Positions 814 to 30,686 of a DNA stretch of 35,406 nt are shown piece by piece. Source of the DNA: Bacteroidaceae bacterium (GTDB lineage Bacteria > Bacteroidota > Bacteroidia > Bacteroidales > Bacteroidaceae). The translations under genes and the position numbers were made by a program. The notes under the pieces are model-generated. The model did not search any database. It saw nothing but the letters and a program-made list of their open reading frames with translations, and was not told the DNA's origin. How positions within the stretch are numbered: position 1 is the stretch's first letter; every line of letters starts with the position of its first letter. Location: positions 1-35,406 of the forward strand of contig JAILRU010000035.1 in NCBI GenBank assembly GCA_024697945.1, written 5' to 3'.

Positions 814-860
814 CGCGTTTAAGTCACCCTTCCCTTTTTGTGATGAAAGTGGATAGGGTT

Positions 861-888
861 CAATTATCCATTGTCAATTATCAATTGG
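861..888. repeat. heptamer array (CAATTAT/CCATTGT type)
   Basis: Four 7-bp units (CAATTAT, CCATTGT, CAATTAT, CAATTGG) lie downstream of the 57-aa gene. The same unit family recurs at 1095-1129 and 14813-14847. Confidence 0.8.
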
Positions 889-1076: not shown

Positions 1077-1094
1077 CTTCGTAATTTTCTATTT

Positions 1095-1129
1095 ATAATT
1101 ATCAATTATCCATTATCAATTGTCCATTA
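1095..1129. repeat. heptamer array between two minus-strand genes
   Basis: Degenerate 7-bp units (ATCAATT, ATCCATT, TGTCCAT types) fill the gap between the 57-aa gene and the stop codon of the upstream gene. They touch the TAA at 1127-1129. They are in the same orientation as the array at 861-888. Confidence 0.75.
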
Positions 1130-2984: not shown

Positions 2985-3244
2985 TCTCTTGTCTTCAGCC
3001 TGCAGAAGCAAGAGAAAATCTCAGCTATTCTCGCGAACCGCTGAGTCTTAATAACTTAAATTTAAACAACTATTTACAGGGATTTTGTCCCCCAGACCCC
3101 CAATATTCTCACGAACGTAGGGAATCTTTTGAGAAAATTTTCAAAAACGACGCAAAGGTACAAAATATATTTTGCGCTAACCCACCCTTGAATGTTAAAC
3201 TTTGTTAAAGCAGCGAAAGAATATGCAAAAATGCATCTGGGGTT

Positions 3245-3272
3245 GAAGAATGAAGAACGAAGAGTGAAGATT
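3245..3272. repeat. heptamer array (GAAGAAT type)
   Basis: The 7-bp units GAAGAAT, GAAGAAC, GAAGAGT and GAAGATT end 6 bp before the -7 element of the M64 peptidase gene, so the array covers its -33 region. Confidence 0.8.
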
Positions 3273-8014: not shown

Positions 8015-8022
8015 CAACTTTT

Positions 8023-8056
8023 AATTCATAATTCATAATTCATAATTCATAATTCC
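8023..8056. repeat. heptamer array AATTCAT (4.7 units) in a divergent promoter region
   Basis: Four perfect AATTCAT units and a partial one fill the space between the -7 elements of tamL (8007-8014) and the methyltransferase gene (8068-8075). They therefore occupy the -33 regions of both promoters. Confidence 0.9.
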
Positions 8057-8848: not shown

Positions 8849-10174
8849 TTACTCCTCCTCGCCTTCTTCTTCGATGTCTTCAATAGAGAGACCTTCCTCT
8901 TCAAGTTCCTTTACATCCTCTTCGGGTGTAAGGCTGCTGTAGAAGGTATCGTCGTTGTCGAGGTTTTCGTCGTCTTCATCAAAATCCTCGCGACCCTCCA
9001 AATCTTCGTCGTGTGGTTCAGGCAGTTCCATGTGAATCTTCTCAACGAGGTCTTTCTTCTTGGCGAAAATGGCTTCCACCCATGTTCCCTTGGGAATCTC
9101 CAAAACATCGAAACCCTGTGCTATCTTCTTCTCGACGGTGCCGCCAGGAGCGTGAATGCGGCTCTGGGGCAACTGCGTAGTGCTTATCTCAAAGCCCCTC
9201 TCGATGATGTCGCGAATGGAGAGTGAAATAGAATCCCATCCGCCACCAAAGTTGCGATTGATGAGTTCGAGAAGCATTGCTGCGGAAATGTGCCTGATAT
9301 TCTCGTAGCTGAGGTCGGTGATACGCTCGATAGCCCTGCGACGGATGGCCACACAACCCTTTGCCTCCTGACAATGGGTGATTATTTCCCAACCGCCATT
9401 TACGAACTTGGCTGCCTCACGTTCATTTTCGGGGTCGAAGTGCACCACATCGAAAACCAGTCGTATGATGTTGAGAAGCTTCTGCTCACTGATGGTGAAG
9501 TCTTCCACTTCACGTCCTCTTTCCCATGCATCGGCAATGTCGTACTCGTCCAAATCCCAAATATTAGTGGCGTTCAGGTCGAGAATATTCTCCAACTTCA
9601 CCACACCTTTCCTTATCCTTGTTGGCTTCTTCTTGGGGCCTTTCTTTCCAGGCTTCTCATCGAGGTCCTCCTCATTCTCTTCCTCAGCTTCCTTCTCAGC
9701 TTTCGCCTTGACTTTCTTTGAGACTCTCTTCTTGGGCTTCTTCTCGACTTTCTCTTCGACTTCCTCCGCAGGTTCCTTCTCAGCTTCCGCCTTTACTTTC
9801 TTCGCAGTTTTCTTCTTCGGCTTCTCCTCGATTTTCTCCTCGACCTTTTCCTCGGTCTTCTTCTCAGGTTCGGCCTCAGCTTTCTTCGCTACTTTCTTCT
9901 TCGGCTTCTCCTCGACTTTCTGCTCGACTATCTTTTCGACCTTCTTTTCAGGTTCAGCCTCAGCTTTCTTCGTCACTTTCTTCTTAGGCTTCTCCTCTAC
10001 CTTCTGCTCGACTATCTTTTCGACTTTCTTCTCAGGTTCAGCCTCGACTTTCTTTTCAACTTTCTTCTCGGCTTCAGCCTTTACTTTCTTCACGACTTTC
10101 TTCTCCGCTTTCGCTTCGACTTTCTTCTCGGTTTTCTTTTCGGTTTTCTTCCCGACTTGCTTCTCTTCCTTCAT
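8849..10174 (-). CDS. Lys/Glu-repeat protein with unknown C-terminal domain
   Basis: The 441-aa protein is not a family I recognise. Residues 1-42 are Lys/Glu-rich. Residues 43-182 are five tandem repeats of exactly 28 residues with core EKK.E..VE.KVEEKPKKK. Residues about 190-380 form a globular, probably helical domain (ENILDLNATNIWDLDEYDI; NFGGGWDSISLSIRDII). The last 60 residues are strongly acidic and end DIEEEGEEE. The highly charged repeats suggest an extended or coiled segment that could contact nucleic acid, by analogy with histone-H1-like proteins, but this is inference. The ATG at 10172-10174 is preferred because a -7 element (10193-10200) lies inside the longer TTG-started ORF. 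It is divergent from uvrB. Confidence 0.7.
   Translation of the reverse strand: MKEEKQVGKKTEKKTEKKVEAKAEKKVVKKVKAEAEKKVEKKVEAEPEKKVEKIVEQKVEEKPKKKVTKKAEAEPEKKVEKIVEQKVEEKPKKKVAKKAEAEPEKKTEEKVEEKIEEKPKKKTAKKVKAEAEKEPAEEVEEKVEKKPKKRVSKKVKAKAEKEAEEENEEDLDEKPGKKGPKKKPTRIRKGVVKLENILDLNATNIWDLDEYDIADAWERGREVEDFTISEQKLLNIIRLVFDVVHFDPENEREAAKFVNGGWEIITHCQEAKGCVAIRRRAIERITDLSYENIRHISAAMLLELINRNFGGGWDSISLSIRDIIERGFEISTTQLPQSRIHAPGGTVEKKIAQGFDVLEIPKGTWVEAIFAKKKDLVEKIHMELPEPHDEDLEGREDFDEDDENLDNDDTFYSSLTPEEDVKELEEEGLSIEDIEEEGEEE
9629..10048 (-). repeat. five tandem 84-bp coding repeats
   Basis: These encode residues 43-70, 71-98, 99-126, 127-154 and 155-182 of the Lys/Glu-rich protein. The first two differ mainly at their first residue and near the end; the last is the most diverged. 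Confidence 0.85.
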
Positions 10175-14812: not shown

Positions 14813-14847
14813 TAATTATCAATTATCAATTGTCAATTGTCAATTTT
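14813..14847. repeat. heptamer array (CAATTAT/CAATTGT) overlapping the metY stop codon
   Basis: Successive 7-bp units CAATTAT, CAATTGT, CAATTGT and CAATTTT run through the TGA of the upstream gene (14833-14835) and supply its last codons. The array also covers the -33 region of the SDR promoter. Confidence 0.85.
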
Positions 14848-25765: not shown

Positions 25766-26755
25766 TCACTGCACCTCCCAGATGTCGTTGGTCTCGAGGA
25801 GTTCGGCGAAGTTGTGGTACTTCTTCTTCCCCTTGATTTCCTCTATCTGCGACCAGACGCAGTCGTCGTAGGTGGGAGCCTCAACATCACGGATGACACC
25901 AAGGGCAATGGGCCACTCCATCTCTGCAAGCTTCAACTGCAAGGTGTTGTCCTCGCAATGGGCGTCGTGAACCAGCACATCGGCTTCGGTATAGCCTTCC
26001 TCACCTAATTTCACAGGCTTTATGCTGAAGCCATCCTGCACGATGCCGTATTCGTTGTTCTCTCCGAAGAGCATCTTCTCGCCGTGACGGAGGTAGATGG
26101 CATTCTTGGCGCGACCCTCCTTGCTATAGACGGCATCGTGTGTGCCGTTGTTGAAGATGACGCAGTTCTGCAGAATCTCGCAGACGCTGGTTCCCTTGTG
26201 GTTGTAGGCGGCCTTGAGCACCTCGATGGTGCCAGGAGCATCGGTGGCAACGGCACGGGCAAAGAAGTGACCACGAGCGCCGAAGCAGAGCTCAGCAGGA
26301 CGGAAGGGGTCCTCCACCGTACCGTAGGGCGATGACTTGCTGACGAAACCGCGAGGGCTGGTGGGGCTGTACTGTCCCTTCGTCAGACCGTAGATGCGGT
26401 TGTTCAGGAGAATCATGTTCAGGTTGATGTTCCTGCGGTTGGCGTGTATGAAGTGGTTGCCACCGATGGCGAGGCCGTCGCCGTCGCCGCTCACCTGCCA
26501 TACGGTCAGGTCGGGGTTCGCCACCTTGCAGCCCGTAGCAATGGCAGCGGCGCGACCATGAATGGTGTTCATGCCGTAGGTTGCCATATAGTGAGGCAGA
26601 CGGCTGGAACAGCCGATGCCGCTGATGACTGCTGTATCGGAAGGCGCTACGCCTATCTCTGCCATTGCTTTGTGCAGGTTGGCCAGGAAGAAATGGTCCC
26701 CGCATCCAGGACACCATCGCGGCTGTCCTTTCTTATAATCTTGTGCACTATACAT
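25766..26755 (-). CDS. korB: 2-oxoacid:ferredoxin oxidoreductase beta subunit
   Basis: The 329-aa protein is the TPP-binding subunit of the 2-oxoglutarate:ferredoxin oxidoreductase type. CPGCGDH (15-21) supplies iron-sulfur cluster cysteines. GDGDGLAIGGNHF (90-102) through LLNN is the TPP/Mg motif. With KorA it converts a 2-oxoacid, CoA and oxidised ferredoxin to acyl-CoA, CO2 and reduced ferredoxin; in anaerobic Bacteroidales this links the reductive TCA branch to ferredoxin. Substrate preference (2-oxoglutarate rather than another 2-oxoacid) is inferred from overall similarity. korA is upstream on the same strand but is separated from korB by a four-helix-bundle gene cassette. A terminator-like hairpin follows. 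Confidence 0.9.
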   Translation of the reverse strand: MYSAQDYKKGQPRWCPGCGDHFFLANLHKAMAEIGVAPSDTAVISGIGCSSRLPHYMATYGMNTIHGRAAAIATGCKVANPDLTVWQVSGDGDGLAIGGNHFIHANRRNINLNMILLNNRIYGLTKGQYSPTSPRGFVSKSSPYGTVEDPFRPAELCFGARGHFFARAVATDAPGTIEVLKAAYNHKGTSVCEILQNCVIFNNGTHDAVYSKEGRAKNAIYLRHGEKMLFGENNEYGIVQDGFSIKPVKLGEEGYTEADVLVHDAHCEDNTLQLKLAEMEWPIALGVIRDVEAPTYDDCVWSQIEEIKGKKKYHNFAELLETNDIWEVQ

Positions 26756-26757
26756 CT

Positions 26758-26790
26758 TTAGTTAAGAATTAAGAGTTAAGAGTTAAGAAA
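26758..26790. repeat. left 33-bp inverted repeat of the four-helix-bundle cassette (GTTAAGA heptamers)
   Basis: It consists of GTTAAGA/ATTAAGA 7-bp units. It is the reverse complement of 27174-27206 except at two positions. It contains the stop codon (26776-26778) and last codons of the four-helix-bundle gene and ends 2 bp from the korB start codon. Confidence 0.92.
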
Positions 26791-27171
26791 AATACCTTTT
26801 GCGTTATCATACTTTTCTGTGTTCTCTTTCGTTGATTTTACTATGGAGGCTAAGATAGCTGTAATCTCATCTGCCTCGTTATGAATTGAATTAAATGTTT
26901 TTTCGTCAATATATTCGCTATCATGTAAGAGTTCTAACCAATATAGAGTTTCGTTTGCTTCCTTCAGGGCTATAGAAGCTTTACTGACAAAGTCTGCACG
27001 ACTTTGTGCAAACTTTGCCTCTCGCATCATAGCTCCAATGGCAGTTCCACTTCGAAGCATCTGCTTTGACAGGACGTATTCATTATGCTGTTTCGTCAGA
27101 TACTTATAAGCTTTCACTATCCGGAGAGCAAACAGATAAGAACGTTTTTCTATAAGCAAGTCTTGAGACAT
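26776..27171 (-). CDS. four-helix-bundle protein (23S rRNA IVP / Avd-like family)
   Basis: The 131-aa, mainly helical protein matches the family named for proteins encoded in 23S rRNA intervening sequences, which also includes the Avd protein of diversity-generating retroelements. Recognisable segments are FALRIVKAYKYL, LSKQMLRSGTAIGAMMREA, FVSKASIALKEANETLYWLELL and NEADEITAILASIVKS. The molecular role of stand-alone members is unclear; they are basic and may bind RNA or DNA. The start codon touches one arm of a 33-bp inverted repeat and the stop lies inside the other, so gene and repeats form one 449-bp unit between korA and korB. No reverse transcriptase is nearby. It is more AT-rich than its neighbours. 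Confidence 0.88.
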   Translation of the reverse strand: MSQDLLIEKRSYLFALRIVKAYKYLTKQHNEYVLSKQMLRSGTAIGAMMREAKFAQSRADFVSKASIALKEANETLYWLELLHDSEYIDEKTFNSIHNEADEITAILASIVKSTKENTEKYDNAKGIFLNS

Positions 27172-27173
27172 TC

Positions 27174-27206
27174 TTTCTTAACTCTTAATTCTTAACTCTT
27201 AACTAA
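27174..27206. repeat. right 33-bp inverted repeat of the four-helix-bundle cassette
   Basis: It matches the reverse complement of 26758-26790 at 31 of 33 positions and is built of 7-bp units. The korA stop codon (27192-27194) and the codons for its last four residues (LVKS) are inside it. Confidence 0.92.
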
Positions 27207-29027
27207 GTTCAGGAACGAGGTAACGAGTTCCGAGGTATTGAATGGTTGTCCTTTCACTTGGTTGAACTGCATGGGTACGAAACCATCGACCTTCATGCGG
27301 AGCCAGGCGGCAAGCTGACCCATGTTCTGCTCTGCCACAACGACCTTCGGGTACTTCATGAGTACCTCGGCCGTGTTCTTGGGCAGCGGGTTGATGTAGC
27401 GGAAGTGTGCCAGTGCCACCTTCTTGCCCTGAGCTCGCAGTTCGTCCATTGCAGCGTGCAGGTGTCCGTATGTGCCGCCGAAGCCCACAATCAGCAGTTC
27501 TGCATCGTCCTTGTCGCCCAGCACCTCGAGGTCGGGAACAGGAATGGCATCTATCTTCGCCTTACGCTTGCGGGTCATAAGGTCGTGGTTCTCGGGATTG
27601 GTGCTGATGGCACCCGTCTTGTCGTCCTTCTCCAGTCCGCCCAGGATGTGTTCGAAGCCCTCGCGACCAGGCACAGCCCAGTAGCGGACGCCTTCTTCAT
27701 TACGCATATAGGGAGTCCATGAGCCCCTGAGTTCCTCAGGCACGTAGGGAGGATTGATGGCAGGATAGTCTGCCAAGTTGGGGAGCTTGAACGCTCCGGA
27801 GCCGTTGGCAACGAAGGCATCGGTCATAAGGATGACGGGCGTCATGTGCTCCAGCGCCATCTTGGAGGCAGCGAATGCCATCTCGAAACAATCGGTAGGA
27901 CTTGCGGCAGCCACGACAGGCATCGGGCTCTCGCCGTTACGTCCGAAGAGTGCCTGCAGCAGGTCGGTCTGTTCGCTCTTGGTGGGCAGACCCGTAGCAG
28001 GACCGCCACGCTGCACGTCGAGCACGACGAGCGGCAGCTCCATGATGACGGCAAGGTTCATCGCCTCGCTCTTCAGACAGATGCCAGGACCAGAGGTGCT
28101 CGTCACAGCCAAAGCCCCGGCGAAGGAAGCTCCGACGGCGCTGGCACAACCGGCTATCTCGTCCTCACACTGGACGGTAATCACGCCCAGGCTCTTGTGC
28201 TTCGAAAGCTCGTGCAGGACGTCCGTAGCGGGAGTGATGGGATAGGAGCCGAGGTAGAGCTTCAGCCCTGCCTTCTCGGCTGCGGCAATGAAGCCGTAAG
28301 CTGTTGCCTTGTTGCCCGTGATGTCCATGTAGCGACCAGGCACCTTGTGCTTCGTCTCGATGCGATAGACGTTCGCCACGCTCGAGTGCGTGTTGTGTCC
28401 GTAGTCGTAGCCCGCCTGAATGACCTTGATGTTGGCCTCAGCCACCTCGGGCTTCTTGGCGAACTTCTCACGCAGGAAGTTGAATGCCACGCTCAAGTCG
28501 CGGTCGAAGAGCCAGCAGACAAGGCCCAGGGCAAACATGTTGCGGCACTTGCTGACGCTCTTGGCATCCATTCCGCTGTCCTTCAGGCAGTCCTTCACCA
28601 TCGTCGTCAACGGACAGGCTATCACGCGGTCAGGGTCGATGCCCATCTCGCCCAGATAGTCCTCCGTCTTGAACTGTGCCTTCTCCAAGTCCTTCGGTCC
28701 GAAGCTGTCCGTATCGATGATGATGGCAGCGTCGGGCTTGGCATAGCGGTACTGCGTCTTCAGGGCGGCAGCGTTCATCGCCACCAGCACGTCGCAGAGG
28801 TCGCCAGGCGTATAGACCTGCTCTGCACCGATGTGCACCTGAAAGCCGCTCACACCCGTCAGCGAACCTTGCGGAGCGCGGATGTCAGCAGGATAGTCGG
28901 GGAAAGTGCTGATACTGTTGCCTACGGTAGCAGAGACCGTAGAAAAAATGTTTCCGGCCAACTGCATACCATCGCCGGAATCACCTGAAAATCTAACTAC
29001 TACAGATTCTTTTTCCTTGATTTCCAT
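27192..29027 (-). CDS. korA: 2-oxoacid:ferredoxin oxidoreductase, fused gamma-alpha subunit
   Basis: The 611-aa protein is a fusion of the gamma subunit (about 1-200, starting with VVVRFSGDSGDGMQLAGNIF) and the alpha subunit (about 215-611, with YPITPATDVLHELS and TSTSGPGICLKSEAMNLAV). This arrangement is usual for Bacteroidetes KorA. It pairs with KorB downstream. The last four residues come from an inverted-repeat arm of the inserted four-helix-bundle cassette, so the original C-terminus may have differed slightly. A -7 element lies about 58 nt upstream, with GTACGAT/TTACAAT heptamers in the leader (29037-29060) and GTGAAAA heptamers over the -33 region. Confidence 0.9.
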   Translation of the reverse strand: MEIKEKESVVVRFSGDSGDGMQLAGNIFSTVSATVGNSISTFPDYPADIRAPQGSLTGVSGFQVHIGAEQVYTPGDLCDVLVAMNAAALKTQYRYAKPDAAIIIDTDSFGPKDLEKAQFKTEDYLGEMGIDPDRVIACPLTTMVKDCLKDSGMDAKSVSKCRNMFALGLVCWLFDRDLSVAFNFLREKFAKKPEVAEANIKVIQAGYDYGHNTHSSVANVYRIETKHKVPGRYMDITGNKATAYGFIAAAEKAGLKLYLGSYPITPATDVLHELSKHKSLGVITVQCEDEIAGCASAVGASFAGALAVTSTSGPGICLKSEAMNLAVIMELPLVVLDVQRGGPATGLPTKSEQTDLLQALFGRNGESPMPVVAAASPTDCFEMAFAASKMALEHMTPVILMTDAFVANGSGAFKLPNLADYPAINPPYVPEELRGSWTPYMRNEEGVRYWAVPGREGFEHILGGLEKDDKTGAISTNPENHDLMTRKRKAKIDAIPVPDLEVLGDKDDAELLIVGFGGTYGHLHAAMDELRAQGKKVALAHFRYINPLPKNTAEVLMKYPKVVVAEQNMGQLAAWLRMKVDGFVPMQFNQVKGQPFNTSELVTSFLNLVKS

Positions 29028-29093: not shown

Positions 29094-29103
29094 CAATAAA
29101 AAA

Positions 29104-29164
29104 GTGAAAAGTGAAAAGTGAAAAGTGAAAAATTATTCTTTAATCTTTATTCCTTAATCTCTAA
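29104..29164. repeat. two abutting heptamer arrays (GTGAAAA; TCTTTAA)
   Basis: GTGAAAA is repeated at 29104, 29111, 29118 and 29125. After a short junction, TCTTTAA, TCTTTAT, TCCTTAA and TCTCTAA follow at 29137, 29144, 29151 and 29158. The second array holds the stop codon and last five codons of the symporter gene; the first covers the korA -33 region. Confidence 0.88.
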
Positions 29165-30610
29165 TCCGTTCTCACTCGAGAAGCATAACAGCCCCAGGAA
29201 CGTCAAAGTGGCATTTATGAGCAAAAGCTCATAGCTGAAATGGTAGCCCCACAAGACGGGGGCAAAGTAGTCCAGGAGTGCACATACGATGGGCGAGATG
29301 ACGGCGATGTAGGGAACTGCTGCGTCAACCACCTGCCTGCGCGTGAAAAGGCCAAAGCAGAAGAGACCAAGCAGCGGACCGTAGGTGTAGCCTGCCAGAC
29401 GGTAGATGGTATCGATGATAGTGCCGCTGCCTGCAAGATGGAAGACGGCAATGCAGAGGGCAAAGGTCAGAGCCACAGACGCATGAACCACATGGCGCAT
29501 GCTCAGAGCTTTGCTTGGGTCATAGCCTTCGCGTTCCACTCTAAGAATATCCACGCAGATGCTGGTGGTCAGGGAGGTCATAGCGCTGTCGGCACTGGAG
29601 AGTGCTGCAGCGGCAATGCCTATAGTGAAAGGGAATACCACCAACGTACCCAAAGCTCCGCTCCCCACAAGCATCGGCAACAGGCGGTCGCCGGCATCGG
29701 GGAGGGCTATTCCTTGACGGGCGGCAAAGGTGTAGAGCAGCACGCCAAGGACGAGGAACAGCAGGTTGACAGGAAGTATCAACATGCCGTACAGACACAT
29801 GTTCTTCTGCGCGGCACGCAGGGACGCACACGTCAGGTTCTTCTGCATCATATCCTGGTCGATGCCGTTCATGACGATGGTGATGAACATACCGTTGATG
29901 AACTGGCGCAGGAAGAACTGCGTACTCGACACATCCCAGCAAAACATCCGTCCCATAGGACTTTGGGCGATGGTCTCAGCGATGCCTGACGGCGACAGGT
30001 TCATCCTCGCTCCCATACTCCACACGATGCAGCCGACGGCAGCAAGCATACAGAAAGTCTGAAGGGCATCGGTACGGACGATGTTTTCTATGCCGCCACC
30101 TCTTGTATAGAAGAATATTGCCAACAACACCACGCCTACGGTGAACCAGAAGGGAAGTCCCAGCGGACGGATGGCCATTTCATGGAGCACCGTACAGGTC
30201 AGGAACAGACGGGCAGCAGCACCCGTGAGCTTGCTCAGCAGGAAAAAGCAGGCACCCGTCAGGTGGCTCCGACGTCCGAAGCGCTCAGCCAGGTAGCTGT
30301 AGATGCTGGTGAGGCGCAGACGATAGTAGAGTGGCAGCAGCAGGAAGGCAATGACCACAAAGCCAGCAGAGAAGCCCAGACACATCTGGATGTACGTCAT
30401 GCCGTTCTGATGCACCCACCCAGGCACGCTGACGAGACTCACGCCGCTGATGCTCGCCCCTATCATACCGAAAGCTACAAGGAGCCACGGGGACTTCCTG
30501 CCAGCACGGAAAAAGGCATTGTTGTCGCCCTTCGATTTCGCTAACCTGGCGAACAGGAACAACAGGAGGATGTAAAGCGCAAGCGCAGAAAACACGAGAA
30601 CATTTGCCAT
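29147..30610 (-). CDS. sodium:solute symporter family transporter
   Basis: The 487-aa polytopic membrane protein has about 13 predicted hydrophobic segments. Typical SLC5/SSS features are the early GRKSPWLLVAFGMIGASISGVSLVSVPGW segment, YSYLAERFG, and ALSSADSAMTSLTTSICVDIL, where SADS is the family's conserved Na+-site region. It imports an unidentified solute with sodium. The final residues LEIKE and the stop are written by a heptamer array. It begins 53 bp after the HU-HIG gene on the same strand, so cotranscription is possible. A small AATCGT/ACGATT inverted repeat (30621-30641) lies in the gap. Confidence 0.85.
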   Translation of the reverse strand: MANVLVFSALALYILLLFLFARLAKSKGDNNAFFRAGRKSPWLLVAFGMIGASISGVSLVSVPGWVHQNGMTYIQMCLGFSAGFVVIAFLLLPLYYRLRLTSIYSYLAERFGRRSHLTGACFFLLSKLTGAAARLFLTCTVLHEMAIRPLGLPFWFTVGVVLLAIFFYTRGGGIENIVRTDALQTFCMLAAVGCIVWSMGARMNLSPSGIAETIAQSPMGRMFCWDVSSTQFFLRQFINGMFITIVMNGIDQDMMQKNLTCASLRAAQKNMCLYGMLILPVNLLFLVLGVLLYTFAARQGIALPDAGDRLLPMLVGSGALGTLVVFPFTIGIAAAALSSADSAMTSLTTSICVDILRVEREGYDPSKALSMRHVVHASVALTFALCIAVFHLAGSGTIIDTIYRLAGYTYGPLLGLFCFGLFTRRQVVDAAVPYIAVISPIVCALLDYFAPVLWGYHFSYELLLINATLTFLGLLCFSSENGLEIKE

Positions 30611-30658: not shown

Positions 30659-30686
30659 ATTCTTCATTCTTCATTCTTCATTCTCA
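30659..30686. repeat. heptamer array ATTCTTC at the HU-HIG gene end
   Basis: Units at 30659, 30666, 30673 and 30680. On the minus strand they encode the last residues (MKNEE) and the TGA stop of the HU-HIG gene. Confidence 0.88.

Follow-up and report, generated by a model that had tools for sequence, protein, structure and literature searches.

To our knowledge, S23/IVP proteins are common, with solved structures and without a known function, and for bacterial heptamer repeats readers have been proposed, none of them established. The closest described setting of such a protein is the intervening sequence (IVS) of rRNA: excerpts of one report describe an S23-bearing rRNA IVS of 428-444 nt that is excised by RNase III and whose open reading frame (ORF) has undergone reductive evolution (PMC4990558). 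For the heptamers, the closest case is TAACTGA, which occurs in Beggiatoaceae, cyanobacteria and some Bacteroidetes; as excerpted, that report places most arrays directly ahead of start codons and in a single orientation, with direct repeats, one inverted case and no evident spreading mechanism (PMC4679880). Its excerpts propose a regulator acting after transcription, name S1, Csp and Csr proteins as possible readers, and consider the repeat-binding protein itself as a possible mobile part; the terms four helix, S23 and intervening sequence are absent from them. Among the papers listed by a literature search of open-licence PMC, no earlier report was seen to join IVP genes with inverted heptamers in operons.

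The window, the whole 35,406-nucleotide stretch of Bacteroidaceae DNA analysed here, contains a unit of 449 bp between korA and korB. It consists of two arms of 33 nt, complementary at 31 of 33 positions and 383 nt apart, which enclose an IVP gene on the same strand as korA and korB (Table 1). On the sense (minus) strand, the two positions that depart from Watson-Crick pairing are one G-U and one A-C. The IVP stop codon (26776-26778) is inside one arm, whereas the start codon ends 2 bp from the other. Each arm comprises about four heptamer units, and the inverted-repeat score of the unit is 27; a threshold of 14 is reached by 1 of 600 random 330-bp windows taken from the flanks of IVP loci. 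In the predicted RNA fold of the 449 nt the arms pair end to end (-130.9 kcal/mol versus -91.7 +/- 5.8 for 100 shuffles, z -6.8). A preliminary description of this DNA had claimed a 449-bp unit with 33-bp inverted repeats tight around its gene, the end of korA in the outer arm, korB 2 bp past the inner arm, and 31 Watson-Crick pairs with one G-U and one mismatch. The unit proved exact to the base, the coordinates and arm letters agree, the mismatch being the A-C pair, and the arms and profile matches support the view that an IVP-family gene stands within korA-korB enclosed in an inverted-repeat cassette.

Table 1. Features of the korA-korB unit and the lone heptamer arrays in the window.
Feature	Position	Strand	Remarks
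5' arm in operon sense	27174..27206	-	Heptamer array AGTTAAG/AATTAAG; last four korA codons and stop
IVP (S23 family) four-helix-bundle gene, 131 aa	26776..27171	-	PF05635, TIGR02436
3' arm, inverted heptamer array	26758..26790	-	Carries IVP stop; korB start 2 bp beyond
korA, 2-oxoacid:acceptor oxidoreductase alpha subunit, upstream cistron	27192..29027	-	TIGR03710 653.9 bits, cut-off 482.75
korB, beta subunit, downstream cistron	25766..26755	-	TPP-binding domain PF02775 98.4 bits; NF008820 and TIGR02177 below own cut-offs
Lone array TTTTCAC in operon sense, 3'-arm type	29100..29131	-	Upstream of korA; within 900 bp, best inverted partner matches 18/32
Lone array AGATTAA-like, 5'-arm type	29133..29166	-	Overlaps end of gene 29147-30610
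Lone array	860-887		ARTKNAN-like units, near gene end
Lone array	1093-1129		ARTKNAN-like units, near gene end
Lone array	3244-3270		ARTKNAN-like units, near gene end
Lone array	8022-8055		ARTKNAN-like units, near gene end
Lone array	14814-14845		ARTKNAN-like units, near gene end
Lone array	30659-30684		ARTKNAN-like units, near gene end

The 131-residue ORF matches PF05635 with 94.7 bits (cut-off 33.8) and TIGR02436 with 103.8 bits (cut-off 24). Its predicted structure is a four-helix bundle (pLDDT 94), and the solved structure nearest to this model is 2RLD, at 54-57% identity and an rmsd of 0.7-0.9. We take 2RLD to be BT_0352, an S23-family protein of Bacteroides thetaiotaomicron, likewise without an assigned function that we know of, and 2GSC to be XCC0516. 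Five chains are present in each of these two entries, and the Xanthomonas S23 protein is described, in excerpt, as a homopentamer (PMC4990558). The idea that the ring counts heptamers, one per pentamer subunit, was rejected on array lengths because arm length is steadier than unit number, with single deviating cases of period 10 and period 11. Structure alignment matched the IVP to Avd, an accessory protein found in diversity-generating retroelements, no better than to unrelated helical bundles, and the neighbours of the gene are korA and korB rather than the reverse transcriptase of such a retroelement. Between the arms there is no ORF of at least 80 aa besides the IVP gene and PF05635 is the sole domain matched, hence no transposase.

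The unit resembles a 23S rRNA IVS with an S23/IVP ORF in its similar size, its protein family and its complementary, stem-closing ends, and RNA continuity is unneeded at either kind of site. Unlike an rRNA IVS, it lies between protein genes and has arms of tandem heptamers with a shared core, and its protein has a low dN/dS, in contrast to the reductive evolution that the excerpts report for the IVS ORF (PMC4990558). None of the fetched loci contained any of six conserved rRNA motifs, and the window gave no Rfam match. The module would work like an IVS, yet by location it is not one. With the TAACTGA repeats, as excerpted, it shares the unit type, and their place and orientation are those of its 3' arm; those repeats are direct, whereas the arms are inverted around an IVP gene (PMC4679880). 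One Nostocales module (L118) has arms of (TCAGTTA)n, which is TAACTGA read on the opposite strand. Insertion sequences and MITEs likewise have terminal inverted repeats and ORF-less short forms, but the module has no transposase, no recent copies were seen, and its ORF stands at fixed sites with low dN/dS; by the features tested, it is not an insertion sequence.

The korA-korB module is not a one-off. The window's assembly contains eight PF05635 matches, all above the cut-off, and seven have inverted repeat-array arms; the eighth (36 bits, in a 256-aa frame) is without them. Each armed gene lies between co-directional genes, which we take to be sdhA/sdhB, gmd/fcl, araD/araA, korA/korB, V-ATPase A/B, pgi/HAD hydrolase and pta/ackA, the names being recognised from sequence as partners, with HMM tests confined to korA/korB. 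Every one of the seven has its own distinct repeat: AAGGTTAT (period 8), GTTTAGA, AATTGAT, GTTAAGA, AATTCAT, AATTCAA and AGTGAAA.

A profile search of other genomes' contigs with the alignment of the type-ii subfamily confirmed at least 588 IVP loci, and the best 80 were kept. The preliminary description had proposed looking elsewhere for copies with flanking inverted heptamers, and such copies abound: of these best 80, 69 reach an inverted-arm score of 14 or more and 11 fall below the threshold, and the period is 7 in 70 of the 71 elements where one could be called. By record title, 27 of 30 non-Bacteroidota among the same best 80 of at least 588 qualify, including Clostridia, Cyanobacteria, Gammaproteobacteria, Sulfurovum, Patescibacteria and Thermoflexus, and some of these labels may be wrong because many records are MAGs. 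In the window's own and relative genomes 28 of 37 IVP loci score at least 14 and nine are without arms, versus 5 of 300 cross-locus pairs. The cross-locus null is high for the 80-locus set (56 of 500 at 14 or more) because the arms share a theme, so random windows are the fairer control there.

The neighbours of ten of the 80 loci were named by best NCBIfam match, some of them below the family cut-off. The pairs include murA/hisG, argC/argD (Bacteroides xylanisolvens), glyA/nrdR, rsgA/D-aminoacyl-tRNA deacylase, pflB/pflA (B. nordii), mraY/murD, glutathione reductase/ABC transporter and RluA family/murC; at two loci (L130 and L136) one partner each had no NCBIfam match at 1e-25. In an excerpted table headed phage elements, both strains of Flavobacterium columnare are listed with a four helix bundle protein flanked by guanylate kinase and a nicotinate-nucleotide adenylyltransferase. 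IVP genes, counted as genes rather than arms, are found on 25 plasmid records, mostly cyanobacterial. On a Planktothrix plasmid (L328) the gene lies between the DISARM helicase drmD and a PglX methyltransferase, and on a Dolichospermum plasmid (L329) it follows a helicase-related gene, upstream of a DNA methyltransferase.

The arms follow common rules. Their consensus, read in gene sense on the 5' arm, is ARTKNAN; ARTK is present in 84% of 413 5'-arm units from 85 elements, versus 36% after letter shuffling within units, and in 81% of 355 3'-arm units read inverted. The median array span is 24-32 bp for period 7 (4.3-4.6 units), period 8 and period 9, with few group exceptions. Both neighbours are on the element's own strand in 72 of the 97 elements scoring at least 14; where both lie within 100 bp (n=79), the orientations are 63 ++, 6 +-, 6 -+ and 4 --, all counted from simple ORF calls. 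In 44 of 92 cases the upstream stop falls within the 5' arm region, and in 28 of 92 it precedes the 5' arm by no more than 15 bp. Stops in all three frames occur in 60 of 93 5' arms, versus 22 of 93 among the 3' arms and 19 of 93 among shuffled ones. An RNA signature was sought as an excess of G-U over A-C among arm mismatches and was absent, with 50 G-U versus 65 A-C over two IVP sets (32 versus 43 and 18 versus 22). Selection on RNA pairing as such is therefore not demonstrated, and a DNA-level role fits this result equally well. In-register arm identity was 0.899, versus 0.828 after permutation (76 elements), a difference that is biased because the register was chosen as the best.

Six junctions that carry the module in the window's genome were compared, each over its 30 best-matching genomes, with that of the window among them. 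This gave 171 readable loci out of 180, with a junction choice biased by design and classes assigned by an automatic rule: 94 are empty, 19 hold IVP modules (six being those of the window's genome), 13 hold GxxExxY genes (PF13366), nine lone arrays, six ORF-less hairpins and 30 something else. With 94 of 171 loci empty, the module is dispensable. Every one of the 32 IVP (19/19) and GxxExxY (13/13) inserts is in sense. Where a junction is empty the two genes lie close together, in many species 0-5 bp apart at sdhA-sdhB and gmd-fcl, so the module breaks a close spacing. The korA-korB junction itself (n=30) is empty in 15 genomes, with two IVP modules (the window and G024), nine GxxExxY genes, two lone arrays and two other inserts. 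Empty sites in relatives had been suggested as a check, and 15 of the 29 relatives read provide them; the preliminary description had also named two contrary outcomes, the gene being at the same place in all relatives without repeats and four-helix-bundle genes elsewhere showing no association with repeats, and neither was found.

The GxxExxY genes occupy the same junctions as the IVP modules, at korA-korB (L010-L013, L016, L023, L026, L030, L036) and at gmd-fcl (L300, L301, L302, L307), often with inverted arms of period 9 of the AACCACAGATTACACAGATT type. Over the own and relative genomes their arms score at least 14 at 14 of 30 loci, and the period is 9 in eight of ten callable cases; mismatches in these arms number 8 G-U versus 8 A-C. 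GxxExxY genes with inverted arms are a parallel type of module. Judged by eye, the arms of the ORF-less hairpins L251 and L263 are of the heptamer type. Yet another kind of insert, the third, at operon junctions (L196, L197, L205, L225, L226, L240, L021) is ORF-less, 140-357 bp long, and has CCCTCCC-like and GGGAGGG-like ends. In one species (L303) the gmd-fcl junction is taken up by a lone array, 96 bp long, of TTTTCAC-type heptamers.

Some empty sites resemble the elements found elsewhere. An empty pta-ackA junction (L210, AAGTGAAA) and two empty V-ATPase A-B junctions (L247 and L248, AATTCATAA) carry the heptamer of the element that stands at the same junction in another species, which may reflect target homology, target-derived arms or near-precise loss. 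Inspection by eye revealed no such match at sdhA-sdhB, korA-korB, araD-araA or gmd-fcl, and no target duplication among the empty sites compared, which were not near-identical to the filled ones.

A tree of 93 type-ii IVP proteins, built on few columns and with many open forks, leaves out the type-i copies (L001 and L002). Its clades follow the junctions, with three korA-korB rows (100/100), five pta-ackA rows (100/98) and two V-ATPase rows (100/100); four araD-araA rows group with two named MAGs that have araA downstream (97/69 for the six), the exception being the araD-araA copy of G014, placed elsewhere. The five type-ii copies of the window's genome (G000) are far apart, and same-junction copies of other species are nearest to them where present. 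With this grouping, no recent hop is seen. A third genome with the korA-korB module is a MAG (record CAMKTS010000015), with identities of 84% for korA, 83% for korB and 84% for the IVP. The IVP dN/dS is 0.03-0.11 in the seven unsaturated pairs among 12 same-junction pairs (five are saturated), as low as the 0.03-0.20 of korA/korB; these are simple counts at dS 0.65-2.2, where values of 1 to 2.2 approach saturation, and one trio supplies three of the seven pairs. In six orthologue pairs arm identity is 82-100%, against a difference at 43-71% of synonymous sites, with arms as delimited by the repeat finder and aligned at the best shift, which favours conserved parts. Distant araD-araA orthologues differ in their array, AATTGAT in one and AATGGAC in the other, on both arms. 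The L268-L296 pair at this junction shows seven two-sided, pairing-keeping changes versus two one-sided ones, and L268-L281 five versus five; one-sided changes equal or exceed paired ones in nine of 11 orthologue comparisons.

Judged from these substitution patterns, the korA-korB protein and its arms are under strong purifying selection. Because copies group by junction, dN/dS is low and the arms are conserved despite synonymous divergence, the unit looks like an old, constrained two-part module rather than a freshly hopping element. Of the inserted element claimed by the preliminary description, the cassette holds and a recent insertion does not, given three genomes in one clade and purifying selection on protein and arms; recent transposition was dropped in view of the tree and the low dN/dS.

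Our preferred reading, at a probability of roughly 0.45, is an intercistronic IVP module whose arms would pair in the mRNA; the resulting stem, about 33 bp long, is a likely substrate of RNase III and a likely binding site of the IVP. What sequence comparison shows is the two-part anatomy, the recurrence between partner genes, the strong sense bias, the ARTKNAN core and a similar arm length whatever the period and, at the tested junctions, the grouping by junction, the low dN/dS and the conserved arms. In the cell, the arms of the shared korA-korB mRNA would pair between the two cistrons, and RNase III would cut the stem, as with the stems of 23S rRNA IVS, leaving separate korA and korB messages. 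Since either cistron functions by itself, the cut ends would not have to be rejoined. The IVP, with five chains in its solved relatives, may recognise its own heptamers and tune this processing, and the module would in this way set the amount of each partner protein.

Patchy presence with empty junctions, the occurrence of IVP and GxxExxY types at one junction, the lone arrays (9/171) and ORF-less hairpins (6/171), and the spread over many phyla by record title and onto 25 plasmid records would also suit a selfish IVS-like mobile element. The arms would then be its ends, the lone arrays and ORF-less hairpins its remains, and it would survive only in sense at stop-start junctions, as other insertions would be harmful. 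We regard this as unlikely, since it has no transposase or other long ORF inside and no target duplication was seen by eye. The type-ii IVPs also cluster by junction, the five type-ii copies of G000 being far apart (type-i copies are outside the tree), and dN/dS is low in place at dS 0.65 to 2.2, whereas a purely selfish, immobile insert should decay. Control at the level of DNA appears quite improbable: the IVP would bind the arrays as iterons, the inverted layout being two facing sites, and would repress or pause transcription between korA and korB or protect the junction. DNA binding alone explains neither the operon location nor the sense orientation, and a similar total length across periods 7, 8 and 9 ill suits a fixed helical phasing, although three heptamers make 21 bp, or two turns of B-DNA. 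The ARTKNAN core on both arms and the arm mismatches, which lack a G-U bias and include many T/G exchanges, would suit such binding, but no sequence-specific binding to DNA is known to us for 2RLD, 2GSC or Avd, which counts against it. That an unrelated gene is flanked by an AT-rich simple repeat through mere chance is hardly credible even in a window with eight more heptamer arrays; this reading is already refuted by 1 of 600 random windows versus 69 of the best 80 IVP loci and by the conservation of arms in orthologues.

Beyond this locus, the processing-module reading would extend to a wider proposal, which we hold tentatively and at somewhat less than even odds: that a widespread, unrecognised system of IVP and inverted heptamers splits polycistronic messages as a non-splicing relative of the rRNA IVS, with the IVP as the missing heptamer reader, the orphan arrays of Bacteroidota and cyanobacteria as relics or outposts, and GxxExxY genes with 9-bp arms as a parallel system. 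The IVP protein is a new candidate reader of heptamer repeats, and tying it to heptamers at core-operon junctions gives both a concrete, testable role. A possible further implication is that an inserted protein-coding hairpin serves many bacteria in adjusting the ratio of partner proteins, and, if true, rRNA inserts that are cut but not spliced would fall into a wider class.

Eight further heptamer arrays lie in the window (Table 1), each with a best inverted partner of at most 65% within 900 bp. Their units are similar to those of the arms, in line with the heptamer theme that the preliminary description had noted as common to the element and other arrays, and the link to the IVP may explain such orphan arrays. 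Several of the last six in Table 1 overlap a stop codon, or their end falls immediately ahead of a start. The window also contains an 84-bp tandem repeat in 5.5 copies (9651-10165), built of 12-bp units and located inside overlapping open frames.
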